Origin: an uncultured Fluviicola sp. | Lineage (GTDB): Bacteria; Bacteroidota; Bacteroidia; Flavobacteriales_D; Crocinitomicaceae | Reading direction: 5' to 3' | Assembly: GCF_902168135.1 (NCBI RefSeq) | Contig: NZ_CABHOL010000021.1 | Location: 62,001 to 126,000, forward strand | Length of the DNA stretch: 64,000 nt | In this document: positions 34,430-58,180 of the stretch, piece by piece | How positions within the stretch are numbered: position 1 is the first letter of the stretch | Layout of the letters: each line of letters opens with the position of its first letter | Translations under genes and position numbers: made by a program | The notes under the pieces: generated by a model | Told to the model about the DNA's origin: nothing | Database searches by the model: none | What the model saw: only the letters and a program-made list of their open reading frames with translations

Positions 34430-34449
34430 AACCATCCAAAAAATACGAA

Positions 34450-34482
34450 GGGCGTCTCGGTTAAACCGAGACGCCCCTTTTG
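34450..34482. terminator. Bidirectional terminator between gpmI and the convergent anchor-L gene
   Basis: GGGCGTCTCGG pairs with CCGAGACGCCC around a small TTAAA loop, followed by CTTTTGTTT on the plus strand. It lies 20 bases after the gpmI stop and 19 bases after the stop of the minus-strand gene. Confidence 0.85.
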
Positions 34483-38936: not shown

Positions 38937-40475
38937 CTACTTCGCAAGCAGGTTTCTCCAACTCACTTTCTCATCGATTTTTGCTCTCAATTCGGAAATA
39001 GCTACACGCTCCTGCTCCATCGTATCACGATCGCGGATTGTTACCGTATTATCCTCCAAAGTCTGATGATCCACCATCACACAATATGGTGTTCCGATTG
39101 CGTCTTGTCGGCGGTAACGTTTCCCCGGAGAATCTTTCTCATCGTATTGGCAATTAAAGTCGAAACGCAGGTCATTCAGGATTTCTGTCGCTTTTTCCGG
39201 CAAACCGTCTTTCTTCGTCAGTGGCATAACCGCTACTTTATAAGGAGCAAGCTGCGCAGGAAGGCTCAATACAACGCGTTCCGAACCATCTTCCAATTTC
39301 TCATTCTTATAAGAAGCGCTCATCACGGCCAGGAACATACGATCCAAACCAACGGATGTCTCCACCACATAAGGCACATAGTTCTGGTTCAGTTCCGGAT
39401 CGAAATACTGCAGCTTTTTCCCTGAAAATTGTTCGTGCTGTTTTAGGTCGAAATCTGTTCTGGAGTGGATTCCTTCCAATTCTTTGAATCCCATCGGGAA
39501 ATCGAATTCAATATCACAAGCCGCATTCGCGTAATGAGCTAACTTGATATGATCGTGCTCGCGGTAATAGTTTTCACCCAAACCAAGCGCTTTGTGCCAT
39601 TTCAAACGGGCATCTTTCCAATGGTTGTACCACTGCATTTCCTCACCCGGACGCACAAAGAACTGCATTTCCATTTGTTCGAATTCACGCATGCGGAAAA
39701 TGAACTGGCGCGCCACGATCTCATTTCTGAAAGCCTTACCAATCTGAGCAATTCCAAAAGGAATCTTCATACGACCGCTTTTCTGTACATTCAGGAAGTT
39801 CACGAAAATACCCTGAGCAGTTTCCGGGCGCAGGTAAATCGTAGCAGCATCTCCGGCCACCGAACCCAATTCGGTAGAGAACATCAGGTTGAACTGACGC
39901 ACTTCAGTCCAGTTACGGGACCCACTGATCGGACAAACGATTTCCAGGTCTTCGATCAGTTTTTTGACACCTTCCAGGTCATTGTTTTCCAAAGTCACTC
40001 GCATCCGGTCTTCGATCTCTTTGATCTTTTCCTCGTTGCGCAATACATTCGGGTTCGTAGAACGGAACTGAGCTTCGTCGAAAGCATCTGCAAATTTCTT
40101 CGCTGCTTTCTCTACCTCTTTATTGATCTTTTGACGGATTTTTTCGATATGCTCTTCGATCAATACATCCGCACGGTATCTCTTCTTGGAATCTTTGTTA
40201 TCAATCAACGGATCATTGAATGCATCTACGTGCCCGGAAGCTTTCCAGGTTGTTGGATGCATGAAGATTGCGGCATCAATTCCCACGATATTATCATTCA
40301 TCTGTACCATGGATTTCCACCAGTACTGTTTGATATTATTCTTCAATTCAGAGCCTAGCTGACCATAATCGTAAGTTGCAGCCAAACCATCGTAAATTTC
40401 AGATGAAGGGAAAACGAATCCGTATTCCTTCGCGTGAGAAATAACTTCCTTTAATAAATCTTCTTTCTGTTCCAT
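38937..40475 (-). CDS. glyS: Glycyl-tRNA synthetase, alpha2 type
   Basis: A 512-residue class II synthetase of the homodimeric (archaeal/eukaryotic-like) type, which charges tRNA-Gly with glycine. The N-terminal motif YGFVFPSSEIYDG...YDYGQLGSELKNN and the class II motifs are present. Motif 2 lies near QIGKAFRNE...QFIFRMREFEQMEMQFF, motif 3 near ETSVGLDRMFLAVM. The anticodon-binding domain (about 410-512) includes APYKVAVMPLTKKDGLP. A perfect -7 promoter box lies directly upstream. A palindromic element separates it from the MBL-rhodanese gene upstream. Confidence 0.97.
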   Translation of the reverse strand: MEQKEDLLKEVISHAKEYGFVFPSSEIYDGLAATYDYGQLGSELKNNIKQYWWKSMVQMNDNIVGIDAAIFMHPTTWKASGHVDAFNDPLIDNKDSKKRYRADVLIEEHIEKIRQKINKEVEKAAKKFADAFDEAQFRSTNPNVLRNEEKIKEIEDRMRVTLENNDLEGVKKLIEDLEIVCPISGSRNWTEVRQFNLMFSTELGSVAGDAATIYLRPETAQGIFVNFLNVQKSGRMKIPFGIAQIGKAFRNEIVARQFIFRMREFEQMEMQFFVRPGEEMQWYNHWKDARLKWHKALGLGENYYREHDHIKLAHYANAACDIEFDFPMGFKELEGIHSRTDFDLKQHEQFSGKKLQYFDPELNQNYVPYVVETSVGLDRMFLAVMSASYKNEKLEDGSERVVLSLPAQLAPYKVAVMPLTKKDGLPEKATEILNDLRFDFNCQYDEKDSPGKRYRRQDAIGTPYCVMVDHQTLEDNTVTIRDRDTMEQERVAISELRAKIDEKVSWRNLLAK

Positions 40476-40524: not shown

Positions 40525-40564
40525 AAAACAGTAGGGGCGCGATTAATCGCGCCCCTACTGTTTT
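40525..40564. repeat. 40-base perfect palindrome with GTAGGGGCG arms, copy 1
   Basis: Bases 40525-40564 are perfectly self-complementary. The arms contain GTAGGGGCG and CGCCCCTAC, the core is CGATTAATCG, and A and T runs flank it. It lies 13 bases after the stop codon of the MBL-rhodanese gene, where it can act as a terminator. The same arms with a different self-complementary core recur at 56582-56615, so it is a dispersed element and not only a terminator. Confidence 0.9.
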
Positions 40565-40577
40565 CATTCTATTTCTT

Positions 40578-41975
40578 TTACTTTTTCGAACTGCAAACGA
40601 AATCCGTTGTTGGGATTCCTGCTTTTTTAATTGCTCCGAATCCTCCGGCGATATCGATCAGGTTCTTAAATCCTTTTTGTTTCAACAATGAAATGGCGAT
40701 GACGCTTCGATAACCTCCTGCGCAATGCACATAATATGGATTATTCGGCTTCAAATCTCCCAAATCGTCCAACATGAAATCCAGCGCTACATGCTCTGCA
40801 TGTTCCAAATGCTCTGCCTCATATTCTCCCGGTTTACGAACATCCAGGACCGGAAGGGTGTCAATTTTGTCAGCGATGCTCTCAGCGGTTACCGATTCGA
40901 TCGTTTCAATAGGCTCACCGGCAGCAATCCATGATTTCATACCTCCATCCAGGTAGCCGACACAATTGTCGTAACCAACACGTGCTAAACGCATAACGGT
41001 TTCTTCTTCTTTTCCTTCCGGAACAATCAATACAATAGGCTGATTGATGTCTTCGATCAGTGCTCCGACCCACATGGCAAATGTTCCGTTCAATCCGATA
41101 AACAAACTGTTCGGAATAGCTCCCTTGATGTATTCATCCTGGCTACGGACATCCAGAACCAATACGTTCTCGCTGATCAATCTTTTTACTTCATCCACAC
41201 TCAATGCAGTTTTCCCTTTCGAGATCACTTCATCGATGGACTCGTAGCCATTTTTATTCATCATGGCGTTTTTCGGGAAGTATTGAGGCGGAGGCAAAAT
41301 ACCTTCTGTTACTTCTTTAATAAATTCCTCACGTGTCATATCTGCACGCAACGCATAATTGGTTTGTTTCTGCTCACCCAAAGTACCTACAGTTTCGGAA
41401 CTCATGTTCTTTCCGCAGGAACTTCCGGCACCGTGTCCGGGATAAACCGTCAAGGAATCAGGCAATACCATAATGCGGTTTCTAAGGGAATCAAATAACA
41501 TCCCTGCAAGATCTTCCTGGGTAAGATCTCCTTTAATGGCCAGGTCAGGTCTTCCCACATCTCCTAAGAATAATGTATCTCCCGTAAAGATCGCGGTCTC
41601 TTTTCCTTCTTCATCAATCAATAAATAAGTTACTGATTCTGGAGTATGGCCAGGTGTGTGAAGCACTTTGATCGTTGCTTTTCCAACTTTGAATTCCTGG
41701 TTATCCTCTGCAATAATGCTTTCGAAATTTGTTTTTGCAGTCGGGCCGTAAACGATCTTAGCCCCGGTACGTTTTGCAAGGTCCACATGCCCGGAAACGA
41801 AATCCGCGTGAAAATGCGTTTCAAAGATGTATTTGATGGACCCGTTCCATTCTTTTGCCAAATCCAGGTAAGGCTGTACTTCTCTCAAGGGATCAATAAC
41901 AGCAATCTCTCCTTCGCTTTCAATGAAATATGCCGCTTCGGCTAAACATTTGGTATATAATTGTTCAATGCGCAT
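40578..41975 (-). CDS. MBL-fold hydrolase fused to two rhodanese domains
   Basis: About 465 residues. The N-terminal metallo-beta-lactamase domain (1-245) resembles persulfide dioxygenase (ETHE1-type): metal ligands in ETHFHADFVSGH, HTPGHTPES and YPGHGAGS, and the Asp in FTGDTLFLGDVGRPD. Two rhodanese domains follow (about 265-360 and 375-462). The first lacks a catalytic cysteine (loop IVPEGKEEE), while the second keeps it (VHCAGGYRS). By family knowledge such fusions handle glutathione- or protein-persulfides and sulfide-derived sulfur. The start MRIEQLYTK is preferred over an upstream ATG that adds seven residues. It is probably a single-gene unit, ended by the palindrome at 40525-40564. 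Confidence 0.9.
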   Translation of the reverse strand: MRIEQLYTKCLAEAAYFIESEGEIAVIDPLREVQPYLDLAKEWNGSIKYIFETHFHADFVSGHVDLAKRTGAKIVYGPTAKTNFESIIAEDNQEFKVGKATIKVLHTPGHTPESVTYLLIDEEGKETAIFTGDTLFLGDVGRPDLAIKGDLTQEDLAGMLFDSLRNRIMVLPDSLTVYPGHGAGSSCGKNMSSETVGTLGEQKQTNYALRADMTREEFIKEVTEGILPPPQYFPKNAMMNKNGYESIDEVISKGKTALSVDEVKRLISENVLVLDVRSQDEYIKGAIPNSLFIGLNGTFAMWVGALIEDINQPIVLIVPEGKEEETVMRLARVGYDNCVGYLDGGMKSWIAAGEPIETIESVTAESIADKIDTLPVLDVRKPGEYEAEHLEHAEHVALDFMLDDLGDLKPNNPYYVHCAGGYRSVIAISLLKQKGFKNLIDIAGGFGAIKKAGIPTTDFVCSSKK

Positions 41976-42359
41976 GTCTGTAATTTTGTAACACAAATTT
42001 CGGCAATTTTTCGACGCAAAAAATGACTTTGCTCATAAGAAACGTCAAATATGGTCTCTTCCTGTTATTCCTACTTTCATTTCTCAACAAAAGAGAATGT
42101 TGTCGGGTTATCAAAAGTTAACCGCAACGCTTGCGCCTTAGCTCTTGCCTACGCATAGCTTCAGCAAAGCAAGGACAGCGAAGGCGCAAAGAGTGCAAGA
42201 ACGCAAAGAGAAAATCTTTAAAAACGTTTCATCTTAGTTTTCTTAGTGGTTAAATCCATCTGAGTCGTGTGTATCAATTTATGAACTTTTGGACTGATTT
42301 TTGATTTTTCGGATGCAGTTCGCAAAATTGCGCTATTTTTAAACCCAAATAAATTGAAT
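41976..42359. other. Intergenic region with a long imperfect hairpin
   Basis: This 384-base divergent gap contains no credible gene. Its notable feature is a structured segment at 42131-42189: TTGCGCCTT (42131-42139) and AAGGCGCAA (42181-42189) pair perfectly. Further pairing continues inside (GCT with AGC, CTTGC with GCAAG). It is followed by a purine-rich stretch with GCAAAGAG and CGCAAAGAG direct repeats (42186-42211). It may be a remnant of a mobile or repeat element or a structured RNA. Confidence 0.5.
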
Positions 42360-54601: not shown

Positions 54602-56560
54602 CTAATTCAAATTCTCCAAATAATCTTCTACTTCCCTCGCATGTACCATCGGGATGGAACACAAACCGGCCGCACAGACTGTAGCTTCGGAATCCTCGGT
54701 ATAGCGCACCAGTAAGAATGGAGAACTCTGCTTTCTGAAGGTATTCCAGTCTGCGGTTTTTGGAATGGTCAATAAACGCACTTCTTTTTGGAAACGCAGC
54801 AACAACAGCGCCCAATTCGAATAACCTGAACCGTATTGCTCCATTCCGTCGATTACGTTTTGAAGCAATTGTTTCGATTTCGCTTCGTAATCGAGGTTGT
54901 CCGTCAGCAAGGAAAGTGTCAGCAGGTTATTGGCCATGATACTGTTCGTAGCCGGAATCACATTGTCGTTAATTTCCATTTTCCGGGCAATCAGGTCGTG
55001 GTCATCTGCCGTGAAATAGAACATGCCTGAAACCTCATCGTAAAAATGCTCCAATGTGTAGCTGCATAATTCGCTGGCAAAATTCAAATCTTCTTTATCG
55101 GCAGTGAGTTGGTAAAGCGTCAAAAATGCCTGGATAGTAGTTGCATAATCATCGAGGAACCCGGTGATGAACGAACGTCCGTTCTGGCGGGTGTGAAACA
55201 ATTGGAAATCGGCTGTTGTTTGGTAGTTCCGCACCCATTTCGCGATTTGCAAAGCCAGCTTCAGGTATGCATGATCTTCCGTTGCTTTGAATGCCTCCAA
55301 TAAGCCTGTAATCGTCAGTGCGTTCCATGCGGTTAAGCATTTCGTATCCGTAACCGGGGCAATGCGTTTTTTCCGGATGTGTAATAAGGTATCCAACTGC
55401 GACTGGATTTTTGCCGGATCAATCTCCGGGTTGTTTTTGCAGAACTCTTCCCAGGTTTCATTTCTCAATAAAACCCATTGCTGATGTTCCCAATAACCTT
55501 TATTCCCCGGATTGTAAAATTTCCAGAACCAGGAAGCATTTTCACCTAAAGCGGCTTCAATCTCTTCCTTTGTCCAAACGTAGTATTTTCCTTCTACCCC
55601 TTCCGAATCTGCATCCTGGGCAGCAAACAATCCGCCCTCTTCACTCTGCATTTCACGTTCCAGCCAACCCAGTGTTTGATCCAGCACCAGTTTGTATTCC
55701 GGTATTTTTGTTGTCGTGTAAGCCTGAGCATAGACACTTAATAACTGTCCATTGTCGTAAAGCATCTTCTCAAAATGCGGGATTTTCCACAACATATCAA
55801 CTGAATATCGCGAAAAACCACCGCCAACCTGGTCGTAAATTCCACCCAATGCCATTTTGTGCAAAGTCAGGTTGACATATTTTTGAATCTCTTCGTTCTT
55901 TTGCAAAATCCCGTAATACAATAAGAATTCCAGGTTACTCGGAAGCGGGAATTTTGGTGCTGAAGTGGGACCGCCTTCTACCATATCCATGCGCTGCTGC
56001 CACCTGCGCACCAGCTCCCACAATTTATCCTCCGGAAAAGGCTTCACGGGTTCTGCAACCGCAATCAAATCCGACTGCTGTACGCCATCAGCCAGTTCTT
56101 TGGCATATTCCAGCACTTTTGCAGGTTCTGCTGTGTAAGTATGGTTCAAAGATTTCAACACGTGCATCCACTGTTCCTTTGGGAAATATGTTCCCCCGTA
56201 AATCGGCTGTCCGTTCGGAATGGTGAAACAATTTAGAGGCCATCCTCCTCTTTGGGTCATTAACTGAACAGCAGTCATGTAAACCTGGTCCACATCCGGG
56301 CGTTCTTCCCGGTCGACCTTGATGCAGATAAAATGTTTGTTCATTAACGCTGCAACTTCTTCGTCTTCGAAACATTCGTGTTCCATGACATGGCACCAGT
56401 GACAAGCTGAATATCCTACGGAAACAAGTACCAACTTTCCTTCCTTTTCAGCTTTTTCAAAGGCTTCCTTCGACCATGGAACCCAGTTTACCGGATTGTG
56501 TGCATGCTGCTGCAGGTAAAGACTGCTTTCGTGAATGAGATCGTTTGTGTATTGTTCCAT
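54602..56560 (-). CDS. DUF255 thioredoxin-like protein (YyaL / SPATA20 family)
   Basis: A 652-residue cytoplasmic protein. The N-terminal thioredoxin-like domain (about 1-165) opens with [21 protein letters not shown] and carries the redox motif [16 protein letters not shown], then [19 protein letters not shown]. The rest is an alpha/alpha-toroid resembling N-acylglucosamine 2-epimerase or GH76-like barrels ([43 protein letters not shown]). The family is widespread but biochemically poorly defined. The CHWC site looks intact. It is divergent from the SGNH operon, with a perfect 34-base palindrome in the shared upstream region. Confidence 0.93.
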
Positions 56561-56581: not shown

Positions 56582-56615
56582 CCAGTAGGGGCGTAAAATT
56601 TTACGCCCCTACTGG
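56582..56615. repeat. 34-base perfect palindrome with GTAGGGGCG arms, copy 2
   Basis: Bases 56582-56615 are perfectly self-complementary: CCA-GTAGGGGCG, the core TAAAATTTTA, and CGCCCCTAC-TGG. The arms equal those of 40525-40564, but the core differs and is still self-complementary. Here the element lies between divergent genes, where no terminator is expected. Confidence 0.9.
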
Positions 56616-56704: not shown

Positions 56705-58180
56705 GTGAAGCAATTACAACCTTTTCATGTGCTGATGTACCTTGCCGGAATCCTGGTATTACTGACCGGTATTAGTTTTTTAGTTAAAGGCGATACGATT
56801 GATTTGTTTGGAACAGATGTGCGTTTTTTGACCTTCAATGACGCATTGACTCCTCCGAAACCGGTTGAAAAAAAGGATATTACCAATATTGTAAAGGTAG
56901 ATACCGTGAATATTGAAAACGTATCCGCTGATACCACGATCAAAAACACTTTCGAATCGGATGGAAAAATGGGAGCTCCGACAGGCGGAACGCTGTCTGC
57001 TGAAGCTGCTACAAGTCTTCAATTCAATGAAAAAGGCCAAAAAGCACTTCATGACTTCTTTGAAAAACTGGAAGGTGCGGCAAAAGGAAAAAAAGTGCGC
57101 ATCCTGCATTACGGAGATTCGCAAATTGAAGGAGACCGCATGACTTCTTACATCCGTCAGCGCCTGCAGACACAGTTCGGCGGATTCGGCCCCGGAACCA
57201 TTCCTGCAAAGAACGAATACAACACGATTACTTTCAAACAAACCTGTTCGCCCAACTTTACCCGTTATACAGCTTTCGGTGGTGCCCGTTTGAAATCCAA
57301 AAAATACGGATCCATGAACACCGCTGCACGCTTCACTCCTGAAATGGATAGTGCACAAATGGCCCTTTCAACCACTATTAAAGAAGCATTCATAGAAATT
57401 GAGCCTACAAAAACAGCTTATTCACGTGCAAGAACATACAATCATGCTAGAATGTTCTACACCAGCTGCATCAAACCCTGTAAAATAAAAGTCTATAACG
57501 GAACGACCCTCATTCACGAAGACAGCCTGGAAAACGACGGGAAGTATCACGTTCTTTCGCTTGAATTCCCAAATACTCCGGGAAAATTACGGTATGAATT
57601 CGCATCTTCAGTGAGTCCTACCATTATCGGTTTCTCATTGGAAAGTGATTACGGAGTGTTAGTCGACAATATTGGTATGCGTGGCTCAAGCGGAACTTTC
57701 TTCGGTAAAATCGACCACAATACGGCATCCAAAATGTATTCGGACCTGAATGTGGAAATGGTTATCATGCAATTCGGAGGGAACGGTGTTCCATATATGA
57801 ATGATTCTTCATCAGTTCGACATTATGCAAAGCAGTTCAAAGGGCAATTATACACTTTGAAAAAGCTGCGACCTTCTGCATCCATCATCGTAATCGGACC
57901 AAGCGACATGTCTATGCAGGGTGCGGCAGGAAGAGTCACTTACAAAATGCTTCCGTTCCTGGTACAGGAAATGACCCGGGTATCCAAAGAAGTCGGTGCA
58001 TGTTATTGGGACCTTTTCAGCGCAATGGGCGGAGAAAACTCGATGCCGAGCTGGGTCGAAAAAGGATTGGCCGGAAATGATTATATCCATTTCACCAACC
58101 GGGGCGCAAGTATTGCATCGCAGCTCTTCTTCGATGCATTCGCCGCAGAGTATGTCAAATGGAAACAAGGAGCTCAATAA
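56705..58180 (+). CDS. Membrane-anchored SGNH/GDSL hydrolase (first of pair)
   Basis: A 491-residue protein with an uncleaved-looking N-terminal helix (about 8-28) and a long Thr/Lys-rich linker (about 50-115). The SGNH domain (about 125-485) shows block I ILHYGDSQIEGDRM with the Ser nucleophile, block III-like QFGGNGVP and block V GNDYIHFT with the catalytic Asp/His pair. Its closest functional parallels are the AlgJ/AlgX or PatB-type enzymes that pair with MBOAT proteins to move acetyl groups onto extracytoplasmic polymers. The start codon appears to be GTG 56705. It leads a tight operon with a second SGNH protein (seven bases later) and an MBOAT protein. Confidence 0.85.
   Translation: MKQLQPFHVLMYLAGILVLLTGISFLVKGDTIDLFGTDVRFLTFNDALTPPKPVEKKDITNIVKVDTVNIENVSADTTIKNTFESDGKMGAPTGGTLSAEAATSLQFNEKGQKALHDFFEKLEGAAKGKKVRILHYGDSQIEGDRMTSYIRQRLQTQFGGFGPGTIPAKNEYNTITFKQTCSPNFTRYTAFGGARLKSKKYGSMNTAARFTPEMDSAQMALSTTIKEAFIEIEPTKTAYSRARTYNHARMFYTSCIKPCKIKVYNGTTLIHEDSLENDGKYHVLSLEFPNTPGKLRYEFASSVSPTIIGFSLESDYGVLVDNIGMRGSSGTFFGKIDHNTASKMYSDLNVEMVIMQFGGNGVPYMNDSSSVRHYAKQFKGQLYTLKKLRPSASIIVIGPSDMSMQGAAGRVTYKMLPFLVQEMTRVSKEVGACYWDLFSAMGGENSMPSWVEKGLAGNDYIHFTNRGASIASQLFFDAFAAEYVKWKQGAQ

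Follow-up and report, generated by a model that had tools for sequence, protein, structure and literature searches.

Double-foot REP-like palindromes with variable cores and mirror-symmetric flanks in an uncultured Fluviicola sp.

Within the 64,000-nucleotide stretch of an uncultured Fluviicola sp. genome analyzed here (the window, on contig C21), two perfect palindromes are each likely to be a copy of a double-foot REP, mobilized in trans by a TnpA-REP like those of subclass 2.4 and retained as a 3'-end hairpin. The assembly comprises 4.38 Mb in 56 contigs and is 99.87% complete. Read from either strand, the 28-nt unit, GTRG-(10 nt)-(its complement)-CYAC, would give an identical hairpin with a GTAG foot. 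Its spread in trans would be due to a TnpA-REP (RAYT) resembling those of subclass 2.4; genes of this type were detected in relatives but not in the assembly studied here. Such an enzyme, a single-strand HUH endonuclease, would read the GTAG foot and the hairpin, not the full sequence. Copies behind stop codons may serve as RNA 3'-end hairpins, often as bidirectional intrinsic terminators. A change on one side alone would damage the hairpin, on which mobility and 3'-end function both depend, and symmetry would persist for that reason; new cores may enter an old site by exchange between arm-sharing copies or by renewed insertion.

Palindromes of the window and their copies in the genome

The preliminary description of this DNA reported a perfect 40-base palindrome at 40525-40564 and a second one at 56582-56615, with differing yet self-complementary cores. 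Both palindromes are exact, the second spanning 34 bases, and the cores, CGATTAATCG in element 1 and TAAAATTTTA in element 2, are each self-complementary. The pattern GTAGGGGCG N{0,30} CGCCCCTAC matched twice in the window and not once in 100 shuffles, and chance is ruled out for both. Element 1 (40525..40564, unstranded), annotated as a double-foot REP copy, contains its 28-bp unit at 40531-40558, bordered by 6-bp mirror flanks (AAAACA/TGTTTT). The stop codon of a gene with metallo-beta-lactamase and rhodanese domains (40578..41996, strand -) lies 19 bp before the unit, and a gene with a class II tRNA synthetase core and an anticodon-binding domain (38937..40475, strand -) is found downstream. 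The minus-strand RNA folds at -35.7 kcal/mol (z -8.95), and a run of U closes the stem in that transcript (CUACUGUUUUUAGG). A terminator-like site was also detected on the plus strand at element 1; the window has 8 such sites in total against 7.0 in shuffles, so that they are not commoner than in shuffled sequence.

Element 2 (56582..56615, unstranded), annotated likewise, has its 28-bp unit at 56585-56612 between 3-bp mirror flanks (CCA/TGG). It is placed between divergent genes, a DUF255/Thioredox_DsbH gene (54602..56560, strand -) and a gene (56705..58180, strand +) for which Pfam and PHROG searches at E 0.001 returned no match. Because element 2 has no U-run, its reading as a terminator was given up. 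A third related hairpin, of the long-core class (34448..34478, unstranded; AGGGGCGTCTCGGTTTAACCGAGACGCCCTT on the minus strand), has convergent genes on both sides and a core class common to loci L013 and L067. Its long core, TCTCGG..CCGAGA, stands within GGGGCG arms; long cores such as this one look like a second REP type placed at the apex of the first. An Rfam search of the window gave no match above the gathering score. The window also encodes a CHU_C type IX secretion domain, a feature indicative of Bacteroidota.

The genome-wide search for the arms that had been proposed alongside these claims returned 39 strict copies (pattern GTAGGGGC N{4,34} GCCCCTAC) rather than only the two of the window, with none for the reversed-pattern control. 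The unit was 28 bp long in 34 of the 39 and had a longer core in the other five, which does not support a MITE in the strict sense, an element of 70-300 bp with the terminal inverted repeats of a DNA transposon. Direct target duplication is typical of MITEs. The strict-copy cores were of the types CGATTAATCG, A, G or T followed by AAAATTTT and the complement, AATAATTATT, and longer TCTCGGTTTAACCGAGA or TCCCGCACATGCGGGA forms; as anticipated from the window pair, they were self-complementary, exceptions being limited to some of the long cores and to occasional wobble or loop changes. A relaxed pattern, GTRG NNN C N12 G NNN CYAC, recovered 94 genome copies versus 9 for its control. The double feet, 5' GT[AG]G and 3' C[TC]AC on a long hairpin, are selected by this pattern, yet the excess of 94 over 9 attests to them. 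Among 14 genomes of the genus, the genome studied here had the most strict copies. Draft assemblies probably underestimate the number of copies because runs of N occur at or beside such palindromes (L039, L098, L110 (G002), L385 and L457 (G008)); at L110, the N run is located where element 2 would stand.

Variation of the relaxed unit was assessed on 50 of the 94 copies, comprising 36 distinct 28-mers. Perfect palindromes made up 27 of the 50 and perfect 12-pair stems 36 of the 50, with mismatches in some of the older units among the relaxed copies. The arms had been described as fixed, but their bases vary in matched pairs too, for example GTAGTGGCG/CGCCACTAC and GTGGGCACG/CGTGCCCAC; they appeared fixed because of the way the window pair was spotted. 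For the distinct 28-mers, 8 of the 12 stem pairs showed changes on both sides, and each of the four invariant pairs (G1-C28, T2-A27, G4-C25 and C8-G21) is set by the search pattern. Stem cells were paired in 96.8% of cases compared with 81.4% after shuffling, and 72 cells carried two-sided changes compared with 17.9, although these cells do not equal independent events because the copies are related. Covariation reached 0.442 versus 0.022-0.128 in slid structures. For all five stem measures, the observed value was attained by 0 of 500 shuffles and every slid control was lower.

Gene context, mirror flanks and orthologous sites

Based on gene positions from a simple longest-ORF call, the 39 strict copies were distributed between codirectional (22), convergent (15) and divergent (2) genes, and none fell within a gene, as is the case for a multicopy, mostly intergenic double-foot REP. 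The codirectional copies were close to the stop-codon side (median 22 bp, IQR 19-24) and further from the start side (61 bp). Beyond the stem, T amounted to about 4.4-5 per 8 nt versus 3.2 further out, a modest rise. With regard to intrinsic-terminator features, the position fits and the stems are very stable; U-tracts are modest, and element 2 is without one. From the orientation counts and the stop-codon distance, most copies probably act as RNA 3'-end hairpins, many of them as putative terminators.

Bases outside the unit were specific to each locus yet mirror-symmetric, with at least 3 bp of symmetry in 38 of the 39 strict copies. The first three flank positions were complementary in 39, 39 and 38 of the 39 copies, versus expected fractions of 0.50, 0.45 and 0.41; beyond them the flanks are A/T-rich, raising the expected complementarity to 0.6-0.8. 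The mean symmetric run was 5.6, compared with 1.2 when right flanks were re-dealt. At 13 further loci from 13 relatives, the run was 3 or more in nine (up to 13) and 0-2 in four, one of these within the genus. Across 121 copies from other phyla, the mean run was 0.70 versus 0.39 in shuffles (highest of 500, 0.61) and reached 3 or more in 12, a small excess there compared with the strong one in the own genome. Fifteen in-gene palindromes were found in 53 transposase genes. Eight had a mirror flank of 4 or more (4-8 bp), including copies with GAAG/CTTC (L280) and GTCG/CGAC (L293) feet, and six had none (L271, L273, L274, L299, L302 and the second of L475); the first of L475, with 3 bp and lacking a GTAG foot, was counted in neither group. 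Since these flanks lie inside transposase genes, terminator function is not their reason there.

We compared orthologous sites by searching for joined flanks without an element for 25 own copies in relatives G002, G007, G008 and G012; both window sites were compared in more relatives than the others. At site 1, G012 had the same core as element 1 with a matched foot change (GAAG/CTTC), G008 had the core AAAAATTTTT, G007 had GAAAATTTTC with one arm mismatch, and G002 had a AAAAATTTT half followed by an assembly gap. Four other relatives (G003, G006, G011 and G013) showed, by eye, different terminator-like hairpins (A-run/stem/T-run); the two that were compared with shuffles gave p 0.049 (G003) and p 0.475 (G006). 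At site 2, the unit was absent from the 8 relatives compared, G002 being gapped there and 4 further genus genomes lying outside the comparison. The presence of the element hence differs between species, and relatives without it often carry another hairpin at the stop-codon position.

Core switching was clearest against G002, a relative with matches of mostly 91-98% to the window. At L057 and L058, both near flanks are equal, with a short core in the own genome and a long one in G002, and L057 has a matched foot change (GTAG/GCAG) as well. At L007, L010 and contig C47, the core differs in G002; the right flank is unchanged, and the left flank diverges either near the unit or at a greater distance. 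On C47 (L066/L427), the own genome has AGAAAATTTTCT and G002 has GCGATTAATTGC. The core was kept in G002 at L011, L003, L065, L015, L049 (differing in the loop only), L056 and L053 (mutated arms), and G002 was without such a unit at L002, L054 and L060. A dispersed inverted repeat around ATCAATTAT..TTGATAATT fills some of the same spacers in relatives (L349, L352, L353, L361, L336 and L362).

From 87 orthologous comparisons, 81 were testable, and the spacer hairpin exceeded 60 mononucleotide shuffles (p 0.05) in 63 of them. This was the case for all 41 spacers flagged as carrying the same kind of unit by a coarse pattern, which overlooks some, and for 22 of the remaining 40; at the two window sites, it held for 4 of 12 tested relatives only. 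Pair changes were counted in 36 of the 81 comparisons, those in which the own copy is a 28-bp unit and the hairpin is strong, with 11 or more of the 14 centre pairs. The stem had 54 two-sided paired changes, 8 one-sided mismatches, 2 wobbles and 4 others, the 3 bp beyond it had 24, 12, 0 and 3, respectively, and the next base out had 3 two-sided versus 11 one-sided changes. These ratios are a description and not a rate because surviving hairpins are favoured and a core switch counts several times. No clean empty site was found for the 25 own copies (up to four relatives each), the window sites (more relatives) or 14 G002 copies (13 of which gave at least one comparison), because these spacers change quickly and are frequently occupied by a different hairpin. 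Likewise, no transposition event was seen in the comparisons of relatives.

Transposase genes of relatives and occurrence in other phyla

An alignment of 11 transposase proteins of relatives served as profile A1, which matched one solved chain, the TnpA-REP 4er8. Genes of the A1 type were present in 27 of 59 genomes. Motifs resembling those of subclass 2.4, loosely read as [ND]HxH..W[QH]..YIxxN and often with DHxH, were recognized at 28 of 30 transposase loci and not at the other two; the HUH match of L298 is doubtful. The motifs given for subclass 2.4 are NH[IFV]H, WQ and YIxNNP (PMC6006769). In relatives, RAYT-like genes are flanked by such palindromes and contain them in frame, although GTRG/CYAC feet are not universal, which supports the REP/RAYT-type reading of the preliminary description. 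Its suggested check for a RAYT-like transposase was therefore positive in relatives and negative for a resident cognate gene, as the A1 profile had 0 matches in the own genome (56 contigs, 99.87% complete), where loss in an assembly gap is possible. A cognate transposase in the same genome, a feature of double-foot REPs, was thus not found even though strict copies are most numerous here, which speaks against the preferred reading.

In 13 of 27 intact genes, the stretch separating the HUH and W motifs contains a palindrome that surpassed all shuffles, and 20 of the 27 had a palindrome with arms of at least 8 in their flanks, a count made without a shuffle control. Several cores were common to transposase-gene palindromes and dispersed copies (GATTAATC, AAAAATTTTT, GAAAATTTTC and AATAATTATT), and two G012 transposase genes contain GTAGGGGCGAAAAATTTTTCGCCCCTAC in frame, translated as VGAKNFSPL. 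In-frame REPs within subclass 2.4 genes are already published (PMC6006769) and ours are thus evidence of membership, not a discovery. In the transposase genes of L269 and L274, short tandem codon repeats (NAS, GAATKD) adjoin the in-gene palindromes, which suggests that insertions of several types can be taken up by the loop following the HUH motif.

The A1-type transposase was found in 13 of 16 genomes with the strict element versus 14 of 43 without it (Fisher p 0.001, ignoring kinship). The association was not significant outside the genus (4/6 vs 11/39, p 0.16) or inside it (9/10 vs 3/4, p 0.51). Other candidate partners were rejected. Matches over the cut-off of a curated RAYT model showed no co-occurrence with the element (5/16 vs 12/43, p 1.0). 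Pfam Y1_Tnp detected two genes in the own genome, L016, scoring 100.2 bits with the curated model (cut-off 80), and L017, below cut-off at 49.8. The 3.2-kb locus of L016 is without GTAGGGGC and has other inverted repeats near; L017 encodes a more distant protein, has a different in-frame palindrome and lacks GTAGGGGC in its near flanks. Relaxed units occur at distances of about 1.9 kb (L016) and 0.8 kb (L017). The palindrome in this distant RAYT-like gene (CAAGGGGATTAATCCCCTTG, 20 bp, L017 1476-1495, G000:C36) reads KGINPLD and is kept in two relatives (L283 and L284).

Scanning contigs by the arms yielded at least 117 stretches with 122 elements. About twenty phylum-level names were counted by eye among 80 listed stretches, many of which are metagenome bins with possible contamination. 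The core was exactly 10 nt in 82 of the 122 elements (48 distinct cores). These ten-nt cores were perfectly symmetric in 58 of 82 cases and symmetric at the outer three pairs in 78. For the 62 ten-nt cores of the 80 listed loci, symmetry was 98, 97, 100, 82 and 84% from the outside in, versus 27-42% expected. The scan chose arms only, so this core symmetry was not built into it.

Known repeats, rival explanations and significance

This kind of repeat is already known (PMC6006769; PMC3733652). Double-foot REPs belong to TnpA-REP (RAYT) subclass 2.4, or Bertels group 4, and Quentin et al. (2018, PMC6006769) report them from Cyanobacteria, Bacteroidetes and further phyla. Like the copies described here, they form a long hairpin that starts with GT[AG]G and finishes with C[TC]AC. 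Compared with that account, as far as it was accessible, our copies add matched-pair turnover, core switching and locus-specific mirror flanks at orthologous copies, in a genome where no cognate gene was found. The GTAG REP families (Di Nocera et al., 2013, PMC3733652) also have a GTAG tag, complementary stem changes and a location mostly between codirectional or convergent genes, and members of a few families occur within palindromes. However, the sections available to us describe a GTAG that is unpaired at one end, whereas here it pairs with CTAC, and surrounding palindromes that fit a consensus, whereas here they differ per locus; Bacteroidetes are not among the hosts listed there. The E. 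coli REPs, terminators or mRNA stabilisers, are similarly hairpins behind genes (PMC6006769, PMC13289151), but unlike the double-foot unit they are imperfect palindromes behind one GTAG (PMC8266576). According to these sources, REPs can cause termination (PMC6006769) or stabilise 3' ends without terminating (PMC13289151), single-stranded REP hairpins are cleaved and rejoined by TnpA-REP in vitro, and REP dissemination is described as poorly understood (PMC8266576). Locus-specific mirror flanks and orthologous core switching were not reported in the accessible parts of PMC6006769 and PMC3733652 or in the titles and abstract starts surveyed, subscription journals being mostly outside coverage. 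Among the matches listed by a literature text search for GTAGGGGC, all were unrelated by title. Very small mobile palindromic repeats were reportedly described by Elhai in 2008 among the small dispersed repeats of cyanobacteria, and Higgins is said to have proposed gene conversion between REPs in 1988.

The copies could instead be ordinary host terminators or 3'-end hairpins, converged or homogenised to a common sequence with no mobile element involved. We consider this quite improbable, since 28-nt units of this form, with symmetric cores that vary, recur under about twenty phylum-level names in the listed records, mostly with asymmetric flanks, and palindromes stand in frame inside transposase genes, where a terminator is senseless. 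What speaks for host hairpins is the short distance to the preceding stop codon (median 22 bp, 22 codirectional copies), the other hairpins seen by eye at site 1 in relatives without the unit (G003, G006, G011 and G013) and the hairpins exceeding shuffles in 22 of the 40 unflagged spacers. Operators bound by a dimeric protein, whose own symmetry would maintain that of the DNA, would share the perfect dyad symmetry and the constant outer arms of the strict class (selected by the search). A dimer reading sequence would hardly allow matched-pair variation at 8 of 12 stem positions, for which this explanation was dropped, and it sits badly with placement behind genes, divergent genes being found in 2 of 39 cases; its probability is minimal.

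A third alternative is that symmetry comes from mutation, hairpin-templated repair or template switching (quasi-palindrome correction) copying arms and extending into the flanks. The excess of two-sided over one-sided changes (54 vs 10 for the stem and 24 vs 12 for the adjoining 3 bp) and the locus-specific mirror flanks in 38 of 39 copies, some inside coding sequence of relatives, agree with it; the same stem pattern, however, is expected from selection for a hairpin. Little flank symmetry was seen in other phyla (mean run 0.70, shuffled 0.39, highest of 500 0.61), and central loop mismatches were left uncorrected in L049 and its G002 orthologue. On balance this process seems somewhat unlikely. 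A related proposal, which we make tentatively and regard as doubtful, is that the element duplicates adjacent host sequence in inverted orientation (an inverted target duplication), either on insertion or by later fold-back synthesis from the hairpin 3' end, and that this self-templating also copies arm onto arm. If true, a self-made mirror would explain the locus-specific flanks, their presence in coding sequence and the matched core changes in one step. In six of the eight mirror-flanked in-gene copies, the flank length n makes 28+n divisible by 3 (p 0.02, chance 1/3 each), a hint because this is expected if the flank is added with the unit. The argument is weak, six further in-gene copies being without any mirror flank, and the calculation was conceived after six of the eight cases had been seen.

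On the preferred reading of double-foot REPs spread in trans, a repeat of mobile kin would take, and turn over, the 3'-end hairpin position of many genes. The mirror flanks are a possible footprint of insertion. With different versions of a 28-nt hairpin at many orthologous sites, this genus makes the spread of REPs testable by strain comparison.
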